From NCBI GenBank assembly GCA_007129945.1, contig SKUN01000151.1, positions 1 to 40,846 of the forward strand: a stretch of 40,846 nucleotides of DNA, written 5' to 3'. Origin of the DNA: Bacteroidales bacterium (lineage in GTDB: Bacteria; Bacteroidota; Bacteroidia; Bacteroidales; UBA7960). Under the pieces are notes generated by a model. It was given only the letters and a program-made list of their open reading frames with translations. It did not search any database and was not told the DNA's origin. Position numbers and translations under genes: made by a program. Numbering within the stretch: the first letter of the stretch is position 1; every line of letters starts with the position of its first letter. Shown in pieces: positions 1,227-32,469 of the stretch.

Positions 1227-2246
1227 ATGCAACAAATAGATTGGGGAAAGCTTCCTTTCGGATACTTTCAGACGGATTACAATGTAAGGTGTTATTATCG
1301 TAATGGTGAATGGGGCAAAATGGAGGTATCTTCTTCCCCCCACATCAATATCCATATGGCAGCCACCTGCCTCCACTACGGACAGGAGGCATTTGAAGGC
1401 ATGAAGGCCTATAGGGGAAAAGACGGAAAGATCCGGTTGTTCCGCTGGGAGGAAAATGCAAAACGAATGCAACGGTCTGCTGATGGCATTCTCATGTCTA
1501 AAGTGCCGGAAGAACTGTTCCATAAAATGGTTACCGAAGCGGTCAGACTTAATGAATCGTACGTGCCGCCTCACGGGCAGGGTGCAGCCCTGTACATTCG
1601 GCCATTGCTTATCGGAACAGGCATACAGGTTGGTGTAAAACCAGCGGATGAATACCTGTTTATGGTGTTCGTAGGCCCGGTAGGCCCTTATTTCAAAGAA
1701 GGATTCAACCCGGTGAGTATGCAAATCGTTCGGGATATGGACCGTGCCGCCCCCCAGGGAACCGGACACATTAAGGTCGGCGGGAACTATGCCGGAAGCC
1801 TTCGCGCTTCTGAAAGGGCCAAAGAAGAAGGCTATGCAGCCGTTTTATTCCTGGAAGCCAAGGAAAAGAAATATATCGACGAAGCCGGACCGGCCAACTT
1901 CTTCGGAATTAAGGACAACACCTACATTACCCCGAAGTCAGATTCCATCCTGCCCTCCATTACCAACATGAGCCTGATGCAAATCGCGGAAGACATGGGC
2001 ATGAAGGTGGAGAGAAGAGAAGTTCCGGTGGAAGAACTTGAAACTTTTGAGGAAGCAGGTGCCTGCGGAACTGCGGCCATCATCTCACCAATCGGCAAGA
2101 TCGTTGACAGGGAGTCCGGCAAGGAATACAACCTGAGTAAAGACGGAAAGGCTGGTCCTGTATCCACCGAACTGTTTAAAAAACTGCAGGGTATCCAATA
2201 CGGAGATGAGCCTGATCCCCACGGATGGGTCAGCATAATTGAATAA
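1227..2246 (+). CDS. ilvE: Branched-chain amino acid aminotransferase
   Basis: 339 aa; class IV aminotransferase motifs 'ATCLHYGQEAFEGMKAYRGKDGKIRLFR', 'YIDEAGPANFFGIKDN', 'EEAGACGTAAIISPIGKI'. Confidence 0.95.
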   Translation: MQQIDWGKLPFGYFQTDYNVRCYYRNGEWGKMEVSSSPHINIHMAATCLHYGQEAFEGMKAYRGKDGKIRLFRWEENAKRMQRSADGILMSKVPEELFHKMVTEAVRLNESYVPPHGQGAALYIRPLLIGTGIQVGVKPADEYLFMVFVGPVGPYFKEGFNPVSMQIVRDMDRAAPQGTGHIKVGGNYAGSLRASERAKEEGYAAVLFLEAKEKKYIDEAGPANFFGIKDNTYITPKSDSILPSITNMSLMQIAEDMGMKVERREVPVEELETFEEAGACGTAAIISPIGKIVDRESGKEYNLSKDGKAGPVSTELFKKLQGIQYGDEPDPHGWVSIIE

Positions 2247-2364
2247 TTGTCTGGTTGACGGCTTTTATTCATTGGTTGAGTGTTAGACTGAGGGACGGTG
2301 GGTGGGATAAATCAGTCGGTATGTTTCGCAGAATGGTATTGTTGTTCTGCGCTTATGAGATCAG

Positions 2365-3819
2365 TCACTGCTTCCGGATAATCATCAAACCGATGATGGT
2401 AAACAAACCGTTGACCAGTAGTATTTCAAAACCAAACTGATATCCCCCCAACAACTGCTCAGAGAACACACTTAACAGGTAGCTGAGTATCGGCGAAAGT
2501 AATGCCACTACAGGCACATACCTGTCTTTCAGCTCCCATTTGGTATACAATCCCACAAAGTAAAGCCCCAGCAAGGGGCCATACGTGTAGCCTGCAATGG
2601 TAAACAATTTACTGATCAGGGCTTCGTCGTTGATCGCCCCGTATCCCATAATGATCAGCATGACCAGGAAGGCAAAGGCAATATGTACCTTGTACCGAAT
2701 CTTTTGGATTCTCTCTTCTGTCATTCCCGGCTTGCGTCTCAGCCCGAGGAAGTCTATACAAAAGACTGTGGTAAGGGCTGTGAGCGTACCGTCAGCACTT
2801 GAATAAGCGGCAGAAATCAACCCGAAGAAGAAGGCCAGACCGGCGGTCACCCCCAGGTAATTCAAAGCAATGGTCGGGAAAAGCTCGTCCGAGGTCTGAT
2901 CAGGCCCAAGCGTCAGTCCCACTTCTCCGGCGTAAATCCACAATACTGCTCCCAGGAACAAAAACAACAGGTTAATGGGAACCAGCACAAAGCCGAATGT
3001 CATGACATTTTTCTGTGCATCGCGAAGATTCCGGCAACTCAGGTTTTTCTGCATCATGTCCTGGTCAAGCCCTGTCATTACAATCGTAATGAACATGCCG
3101 GCAAAGAATTGCTTGAGAAAAAACCGCGGGTCAGTAAAATCGACCACAAATAAATGGGTAAACCCCCTGTCACCTGCCTCCGAAACAAGGTCGCCCAGGC
3201 CCATTCCAAGTTGCCTGGAAATCAGCACAACACTTAACACAACTGCTGTGACCATAAAAGTGGTTTGAAGCGTATCTGTCCAAACAATGGTTTTAATCCC
3301 GCCCCTGAATGTGTAAAGAAAAATAAGCACCATAAACAAGGTTACCGTAACCCCCAGGGGGATACCCCATGCATCGAACACAAAGCGCTGCAGGACAATG
3401 ACCACCAGAAACATGCGGAATGATGTACCGATCAGGCGGGAAATAATGAAATAAAAAGATCCTGTTTTGTATGAGGCGAACCCGAAACGTTTTTCCAGGT
3501 AAGTGTAGATTGAGGTAAGGTTCATCTTGTAATACATCGGGAGCAGAACTTTGGCAATCACCGTGTAACCGGCTATATAACCAAACACAAGAACCATGTA
3601 GGAGAATTGTTCATCCTTCACCAGCCCGGGTACTGACATAAAAGTTACCCCGGAAAGTGTGGCCCCGATCATGCCGTAAGCGACTACATACCAGGGTGAA
3701 TTCCTGTTTCCGAGAAAATACGCCTCATTATTCACCTTTTTACGGACTGTCAGCCTGGAGATCAAAAAGATCAGGGATGTGTACAGCAGAAAAGAAAACA
3801 ATATCAGGTAAGGACTCAT
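2365..3819 (-). CDS. Sodium:solute symporter (SSS family)
   Basis: 484 aa, multi-TM protein with SSS-like segments 'NEAYFLGNRNSPWYVVAYGMIGATLSGVTFMSVPG' and 'FRGGIKTIVWTDTLQ'. Confidence 0.9.
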   Translation of the reverse strand: MSPYLILFSFLLYTSLIFLISRLTVRKKVNNEAYFLGNRNSPWYVVAYGMIGATLSGVTFMSVPGLVKDEQFSYMVLVFGYIAGYTVIAKVLLPMYYKMNLTSIYTYLEKRFGFASYKTGSFYFIISRLIGTSFRMFLVVIVLQRFVFDAWGIPLGVTVTLFMVLIFLYTFRGGIKTIVWTDTLQTTFMVTAVVLSVVLISRQLGMGLGDLVSEAGDRGFTHLFVVDFTDPRFFLKQFFAGMFITIVMTGLDQDMMQKNLSCRNLRDAQKNVMTFGFVLVPINLLFLFLGAVLWIYAGEVGLTLGPDQTSDELFPTIALNYLGVTAGLAFFFGLISAAYSSADGTLTALTTVFCIDFLGLRRKPGMTEERIQKIRYKVHIAFAFLVMLIIMGYGAINDEALISKLFTIAGYTYGPLLGLYFVGLYTKWELKDRYVPVVALLSPILSYLLSVFSEQLLGGYQFGFEILLVNGLFTIIGLMIIRKQ

Positions 3820-30180: not shown

Positions 30181-32469
30181 ATGAAAGAAACTGAAACGAA
30201 AAAGGGCGCCGGAATCAAAGCCCCTGATCTTGCGCAGTACGGTATCCATGACGTCCAGCAGGTCTTTTACAACCTTTCTTATGACGAACTTTTTCACCAT
30301 GAAACCGATCCTGCCCTGGAAGGTTATGAAAAAGGATTTGTCACCGACACAGGAGCCGTAGCGGTAGACACAGGTATTTTCACCGGACGCTCACCCAAAG
30401 ACAAGTACATTGTCAGGGAGGGAACCTCACAAGACAATATCTGGTGGGCCGACGGGAAAAACCGGTCAGACAACAAGCCCATTACCGAAGAGACCTGGGA
30501 TTCCCTGAAAGAGACCACCCTGAACCAGTTTCACGGGAAGAAGCTGTATGTGATGGATGCGTTCTGTGGTGCCAATGAGAACACCCGGATCAAAATACGC
30601 GTGATCACGGAAGTTGCCTGGATGGCCCATTTTGTCAAGAATATGTTCATCCGTCCTGCCGACGAAGACCTGGAAAATTTTGAACCGGACTTCGTGATGC
30701 TGAATGCATGTAAAACGGTCAATGAGAAATGGGAAGAGCAGGACCTGAATTCTGACGTATATGTGGCTTTTAACCTGAAAGAAAGAAAGGCCGTTGTGGG
30801 TGGCACATGGTATGGCGGTGAGATCAAGAAAGGCTTCTTTTCCATGATGAATTATTACCTCCCGCTCAGAGGAATTGCCGCCATGCACTGTTCGGCAAAC
30901 ATGGGTAAAAATGGTGACACAGCCATATTTTTCGGGCTTTCCGGCACCGGCAAAACAACGCTTTCAGCCGATCCGGACAGGTACCTGATCGGTGACGATG
31001 AACATGGATGGGACGATGAAGGGATCTTCAATTTTGAGGGTGGCTGTTATGCTAAATGTATCAACCTGAGTAAGGAAAAGGAACCCGACATTTACAACGC
31101 CATACAGCGTAACGCCCTGCTGGAAAATGTAGTTTATGACGAAAAAACAGGGGAGATCGACTTCTCGGACACCAGCAAAACAGAGAATACCAGGGTGTCA
31201 TACCCCCTTTATCATATTAAAAACATTGTCAGACCTGTTTCCAAGGGAACCCACCCAAAGAAGATAATCTTCCTCACCGCAGACGCCTTCGGGATACTGC
31301 CTCCTGTGGCGCGCCTGAACCGCGACCAGGCGATGTATTACTTCCTCAGCGGCTACACGGCCAAGCTGGCAGGCACCGAACGGGGAGTCAAAGAACCACT
31401 GCCAACCTTTTCCTCGGCCTTTGGCGCAGCCTTCCTGCTGCTCCATCCGACTGTTTATGCCCAGGAGCTGGCTAAAAAGATGAAAGAACATGGTGCCACT
31501 GCCTACCTGGTCAATACGGGCTGGATCGGGGGCCCGTACGGTGTCGGGCAGCGCATAGATATTGAGAGCACCAGGAATATTATCCGCTCCATCCTCGACG
31601 GATCACTGGACCGGACAGAAGTGGAGGAACTTGCACCATTCGGCCTGATGATCCCGAAAGAGGTCAGGGGAGTCGACAGCAGCATCCTGAATCCCAAAAA
31701 TACCTGGAAGTATGAAACAGCGTACATGAAGCAGGCCGACCAGCTGGCTGAGAAGTTCATTGAAAATGTTAATAACTTCACTGATACCGAGGAAGGTCAG
31801 CGACTTGTAGCGGCGGGACCCCAAAACAAGTTCATGAAGCAGTATTACCGGTACTATGAAAAGAAGATTGACCGGCTGGAGAAAAAACATATGGCCGAAA
31901 TACACCGGCTTAAAGACCAGATCTATATACTGCAGAATTCTTTCAATGAATACATCTCCTTCAACTCAATCAATACCGATTATAAAAAACGAAAGCTGAA
32001 GAGACATGTGCCAGTGGTTTCTTTCTTTGATACCCAAAATAAGGATGTGCTGAATAAATGCAACCGGGAACTGAGCCGGTTAATGGATGCTGTGGGATTT
32101 GAATTTTTCTCCAACGGAGAAAAGCGGGAAGGACTGACCGAACACATGACAAAATCCATAAATGATCTCAGTCTTTACGAAGTTTACGAGCGCATTGACG
32201 ACATCGCCAAATGCATCAATGGGAGAAATTGCGCCAATCAGCAACTTGAAGAAACAACCCGGGATCTGCTGAACCTGACAAATGATATCCCACGTTTTCT
32301 GATCAAAGCAGGATCATTGCTTGTGGTGAAATGTCACGGAGAAGATGGGGAACAACAAAATAGTGTCAGGGCCGTTAAACTATCAGTATCGGGACTCATC
32401 CATATTGACAAGAATCCCGGTCTTTTACAACAGCCGGAGCAGCTGATGCAGGAGATCAACCATTTCTAG
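30181..32469 (+). CDS. pckA: Phosphoenolpyruvate carboxykinase (ATP) with an in-frame C-terminal extension of about 215 aa
   Basis: '[13 protein letters not shown]', '[45 protein letters not shown]', '[14 protein letters not shown]' (usual end of ATP-PCK, codon 547, nt 31821), then no stop until 32469: '[38 protein letters not shown]...'. Confidence 0.93.

Follow-up and report, generated by a model that had tools for sequence, protein, structure and literature searches.

The pckA gene in the window, i.e. the whole stretch of 40,846 nucleotides analysed, encodes an ATP-dependent PEP carboxykinase (PckA) which continues in frame, past the end of its catalytic core, into a tail of 215 further residues, predicted to form a coiled-coil linker and a globular domain. 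Among fused homologues the whole length of the tail is conserved, and it is under purifying selection. On the whole, the protein is probably best explained as a catalytically normal PckA carrying a fused oligomerising coiled coil and a docking or regulatory domain. A stable fusion of this kind, maintained by selection and adding a coiled coil and an adaptor-type domain to PckA, leads one to expect oligomerisation and new regulation, and suggests an unstudied way to assemble or control PEP carboxykinase. The architecture is undescribed in the open-licence papers that were searched for PckA fusions and extensions.

Table 1. Location of the fused pckA reading frame and its parts in the window, with the basis of each assignment.
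Feature	Position (nt)	Strand	Basis
Whole fused ORF	30181-32469	+	762 aa, no internal stop
ATP-dependent PEP carboxykinase catalytic core, residues 1-547	30181..31821	+	PF01293, NF006819, E. coli PCK structures
C-terminal tail, residues 548-762 (215 aa)	31822..32466	+	frame of the core; full-length conservation; dN/dS well below 1
In-frame ATG, codon 552	31834..31836	+	Met invariant in all tails
Predicted coiled-coil helix, about residues 555-591, conserved 3-4 hydrophobic spacing with one stutter	31843..31953	+	AF2 helix; heptad pattern
Near-invariant connector ending in RHVP, residues 591-611	31951..32013	+	invariant or nearly invariant columns in tail alignments A1 and A2
Predicted globular alpha+beta domain, about residues 608-762, ferredoxin/RRM-like, motifs GSLLxxK and HxDKNPxLLxxPxxL	32002..32466	+	AF2; profile-profile match

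Catalytic core and anatomy of the tail

The core matched PF01293 with 707 bits (E 1e-212, cut-off 26.5) and TIGR00224 with 833 bits (cut-off 590), the NCBIfam model NF006819 covered residues 13–548 (E 1e-276), and the alignment with E. coli PCK structures (E 1e-237) ended at residue 548. The PckA models stop at residue 547–548, and residues 548–762 continue in frame. The initial annotation had placed the end of the catalytic part near codon 547, followed by an in-frame extension of 215 residues, and both the end of NF006819 and the open frame of 762 codons agree with this. In comparison with ATP-dependent PckA as defined by the three family models, the likeness extends over the full-length core with an E. 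coli-type active site, whereas known ATP-PEPCKs stop at about 530–546 residues and lack the C-terminal addition; a length of about 530–545 aa and the monomer state are typical of the family, not defining for it.

The active-site residues of E. coli PCK, from its P-loop, metal and substrate sites (R70, Y211, K216, K217, H236, S254, K258, T259, D272, D273, K292 and R338), were all present, and they were invariant among 32 fused homologues. For these two reasons the fused PckA is apparently a catalytically normal ATP-PEPCK, and activity would be expected of it.

The conserved part of the tail sets in at residue 548–549 (QN.FMKQYY). Its division into a coiled-coil linker and a globular part, as foreseen from the first reading of the sequence, was supported by a conserved heptad pattern and by an AF2 helix followed by a better-supported alpha+beta domain. 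In tail numbering, positions 9, 12, 16, 19, 27, 30, 34, 37, 41 and 44 were hydrophobic in 97–100% of 36 tails, and the remaining positions in 17% on average; position 23, which together with these ten makes up the 3-4 repeat with one stutter, was hydrophobic in 11%. AF2 placed a single helix at tail residues 2–43 with low to middling pLDDT. On the basis of this residue pattern, the linker is predicted to be a heptad coiled coil with a spacing conserved among orthologues.

AF2 confidence was low in the connector, and pLDDT was about 80–93 across most of tail residues 61–165. The modelled elements are, again in tail numbering, a strand at 62–69, a helix at 74–90, a beta hairpin at 93–112, helices at 118–132 and 140–155, and strands at 159–163, 166–171 and 181–186, followed by C-terminal helices. 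As modelled, the globular domain would adopt a ferredoxin/RRM-like alpha+beta fold. Foldseek searches with the tail returned diffuse ferredoxin-like matches (ACT domains of aspartokinases, NIPSNAP proteins, designed ferredoxin folds), with no match at E<1e-3 against the PDB and viral models. In the full-length AF2 model the core was badly modelled, because the alignment was shallow, and this model was left unused for docking of the tail on the core.

The added domain had been described as one without an assigned family, and residues 548–762 indeed had no counterpart among the sequence families of Pfam, NCBIfam and the PDB. The Pfam near-matches PAH_ZNF598, Mu Gam, CCCH zinc finger and DUF1246 lay far below their cut-offs and concerned mainly helical segments, and the PDB sequence matches USP28, HEXIM1 and caspase-4 were rejected as being at chance level.

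Distribution, age and selection of the fusion

A search with the tail profile identified the complete tail in 35 of the 47 genomes of the host's family, a count derived from 37 profile matches after removal of G014 (a remnant of 54 residues) and G003 (a fragment where the contig ends). In a search of 98 related genomes, too, most genomes of the genus and of the family showed the uninterrupted fused frame. Outside the family, eight further genomes of the order, belonging to four other families (G072, G073, G078, G096, G186, G191, G204 and G296), contained the tail within frames of 689–783 aa, the shortest being cut by a contig end, and the first four were confirmed as PckA fusions in the 98-genome search. 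Additionally, two fusions (G970 and G944) come from a different order of the class.

In one scan of a species-level genome collection, the PckA core preceded the tail in frame at 49 of 49 loci. The titles of these loci were those of Bacteroidales or Bacteroidetes MAGs, many with isolate names including CSSed, T1Sed or B1Sed, which were taken, from the record names, to mean soda-lake sediments; carriers were also present among MAGs without such names (e.g. MEOH01000007, PHDB01000070 and JAHJDW010000134). One fused locus was labelled Deltaproteobacteria, and its core fell inside the fused clade. At another locus (L083:2898-5168), the frame of the fused pckA was intact except for one in-frame stop at residue 30, which is due either to a sequencing error in the MAG or to a start that lies downstream of it.

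In a tree of 76 PckA cores, constructed by a quick method with no bootstrap, all fused proteins formed one clade (SH-aLRT 99). A single tail-less PckA of genome G031 was nested inside this clade, and the simplest reading of the tree is one fusion followed by one later loss. The tail-less gene (L042:2188-3924) ends at ...AAGPKTSI with no downstream trace of the tail, and unfused PckAs of the same order finish at ...AAGP plus a few residues. The tail is dispensable, as one lineage lost it and kept pckA. Because the fused proteins constitute a single old clade, and because unfused PckAs end at ...AAGP, it is ruled out that the tail arose here by recent stop-codon loss. The idea of an ancestral separate gene joined by stop-codon loss, raised in the initial annotation, was accordingly abandoned, and the comparison of orthologues for the fused versus split state, proposed together with it, returned the 35 fused family genomes and no split relatives.

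In genome G014, of the same genus, only little more than 50 codons from the end of the tail are left (L044:4764-4922, minus strand, about 46% identical). This remnant is flanked by the YggS-type gene on one side and the cold-shock/kinase genes on the other, where relatives have pckA, and it looks like the product of a deletion that removed the entire PckA core. In the genus members G012, G013 and G016, no pckA was seen at all.

Among near relatives, dN/dS (Nei-Gojobori) was 0.02–0.04 for the core, 0.00–0.08 for the linker (residues 548–604) and 0.05–0.18 for the globular part (residues 605–762). The tail is under strong purifying selection, and the linker, its most constrained part, is constrained as much as the enzyme. 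These comparative data also bear on the suspicion that a sequencing or assembly error, hiding a stop near nucleotide 31821, had joined two genes. The source is a draft MAG of 209 contigs, with this gene as its sole pckA and a single copy of the tail; the identical uninterrupted join, however, is present in dozens of independently assembled genomes, and purifying selection spans it, by which an artefact is refuted and left with next to no probability.

The ATG at codon 552 had been considered as an independent start, from which the tail might additionally be made as a separate protein. Met552 is invariant and opens the conserved block MKQYY. Upstream codons nevertheless vary synonymously, and since synonymous conservation near the junction is close to the gene average, with no excess around the ATG, nothing points to a concealed start, or to any other signal at the nucleotide level, in this codon. 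Moreover, among the 49 loci and the family genomes, no genome contained a stand-alone tail gene replacing the fusion. A separate tail product is judged very improbable; the start signals of Bacteroidota are weak, which keeps the evidence against a start at residue 552 short of full exclusion.

A wider family of C-terminal domains

When searched against genomes, the profile of the PckA tails also matched proteins other than PckA, with E-values of 2e-19 to 2e-6, and the members of this wider family are found at L117, L118, L119, L120, L121, L122, L123, L124, L137, L138 and L139. Among them are a type I HsdR (L118), a pentapeptide-repeat protein (L122), and two proteins encoded next to DNA methylase genes, namely a ResIII-type protein (L119, N6/N4 methylase) and a DruE-like DEAD/MZB helicase (L117, Eco57I-type methylase). 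In two further members (L120 and L121), the rest of the protein is predicted to be partly helical or contains no recognised domain. A second-round profile, built from the non-PckA members only, picked up one more HsdR-like and one more helicase-like protein along with a second L120-type protein, and recovered both PckA fusions of the other order. Two members are actinobacterial, a DUF6232 protein from Nonomuraea and a hypothetical protein from Amycolatopsis. A plasmid search produced no match with the PckA tail, and two matches, both actinobacterial, with the distant domain profile. At L117, positions 2043-3545 (minus strand), near the helicase and the methylase, one protein joins a cytidine-deaminase-type domain to a HATPase_c_4 (RecG-like C-terminal) domain.

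The alignment of the PckA tail with the wider family by hhalign had a probability of 99.4 (E 3e-21) over about 150 residues, and reciprocally, profile A4, built without PckA, found the tail of the window at E 6.6e-14. As judged from these profiles, the globular part of the PckA tail is homologous to the C-terminal domain of restriction helicases and other unrelated proteins. The initial annotation had likened the tail to a C-terminal domain of multidomain proteins in cyanobacteria and Bacteroidetes, and because profile-profile and reciprocal searches confirm the homology, this likeness holds for Bacteroidetes, where restriction-type helicases and a pentapeptide-repeat protein are among the carriers. 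An unnamed domain family, common to restriction helicases and a core metabolic enzyme, is hereby brought out, with type I, type III and Druantia-like restriction proteins among its members; it has no Pfam or NCBIfam model and no PDB match.

The motifs GSLLxxK and NPxLLxxPxxLL are common to the PckA tails and the wider family, and in the closest non-PckA relatives (L120 and L138) a charged helical stretch likewise precedes the domain. In the predicted beta2-beta3 turn, G-S (GSWF-type) was invariant in eight non-PckA members, whereas in the PckA tails G was present in 21 of 36, with Y, V, L or F, rarely S, as the next residue. The PckA branch has lost the G-S-W turn motif, and it differs further from the wider family by a shorter helical insert and by a metabolic enzyme as the partner. 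In every member the domain is C-terminal or near-C-terminal, on unrelated catalytic partners, and this mobility fits an adaptor and not a part of PEPCK catalysis.

Bacterial TRADD-N domains are RRM-like adaptors fused to pentapeptide repeats, effectors and others (PMC8195603, PMC7159879), with a signature of a small-residue and Ser motif in the beta2-beta3 turn (PMC8195603). The likeness to these consists of the two-layer alpha+beta RRM-like fold class, the promiscuous fusions and, in the wider family, the G-S between predicted strands 2 and 3. The likeness in fold is tentative: in the AF2 model the elements in the first part of the domain agree in order with the beta-alpha-beta-beta-alpha-beta of TRADD-N, and one additional helix and two additional strands were modelled as well. 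The differences are the length of about 150 residues (90 in TRADD-N), the C-terminal placement (between two domains in TRADD-N), and PckA tails without the serine. PF09034 and PF13820 (TRADD-N) were not among the matches listed at E up to 1 or 5, nor was any TRADD entry among the 50 Foldseek matches listed. Because the domain is longer and C-terminal, with no TRADD-N profile among the matches listed and with the serine rare in PckA tails, only an adaptor-like working is proposed, i.e. the domain may work like a TRADD-N-type adaptor, and membership is not claimed.

Proposed role of the tail

ATP-PEPCK is an enzyme of the PEP-oxaloacetate node, and few allosteric controls of it are known in bacteria. 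In the proposed explanation, a module of a coiled coil and an alpha+beta adaptor domain was joined once to a normal ATP-PEPCK, in an ancestor shared by some of the Bacteroidia. The coiled coil would hold at least two PckA subunits together, giving an oligomer of a normally monomeric enzyme, and the globular domain may serve as a protein-interaction or ligand-sensing module, through which the enzyme would bind a partner or have its activity tuned. The tail may plausibly have a regulatory or effector role; the role of the globular domain is suggested by its architecture, and no solved structure matched it at E<1e-3. The low model confidence of the helix, and the dispensability of the tail in the lineage that lost it, speak against this explanation. 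A functional analogy, and only that, is offered by malic enzyme, in which a non-catalytic C-terminal PTA-like domain confers allosteric control (PMC8100219): in both cases a central-carbon enzyme has a domain fused to its C-terminus, whereas the enzyme and the domain are both unrelated to those described here.

Somewhat unlikely is a tail that acts chiefly as a structural module for oligomerisation or stability, in adaptation to saline, alkaline or low-energy sediment, with the globular domain packed on the core and sensing nothing. The linker being the most constrained part of the tail is in line with this, as are the record names of many carriers, which are those of soda-lake sediment MAGs, and the normally monomeric state of bacterial ATP-PEPCKs (PMC8100219). 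The carriers include, however, MAGs not named after soda lakes, and the presence of the domain on unrelated DNA-acting proteins points to a general interaction role.

The company that the domain keeps elsewhere could also indicate a conflict-linked switch, in which an immunity or stress adaptor, TRADD-N-like in principle, couples the PEP/oxaloacetate flux to phage-defence or damage signalling, e.g. by metabolic shutdown on infection. Its homologues occur on type I HsdR, ResIII-type restriction protein, DruE-like helicase and pentapeptide-repeat protein, two of them adjoining DNA methylase genes, and the G-S turn of the wider family agrees with the TRADD-N signature (PMC8195603). This reading is nonetheless quite unlikely: the serine of the motif is absent from the PckA tails, no TRADD-N Pfam match was among those listed, and the fusion, in contrast to conflict genes, has been kept stably and passed on vertically. 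Moreover, the neighbours of pckA are housekeeping genes (GMP synthase, YggS-type protein, cold-shock protein, NMP-kinase-like protein and dCMP deaminase) and not a defence island, which speaks against a dedicated defence role for the PckA copy of the window. Similarly improbable is a permanent recruitment of a domain of restriction or conflict proteins to PEP carboxykinase, resulting in an oligomer that ties carbon flux to the sensing of stress or invaders; if true, an enzyme of gluconeogenesis and anaplerosis would thereby have come to respond to signals as an oligomer.
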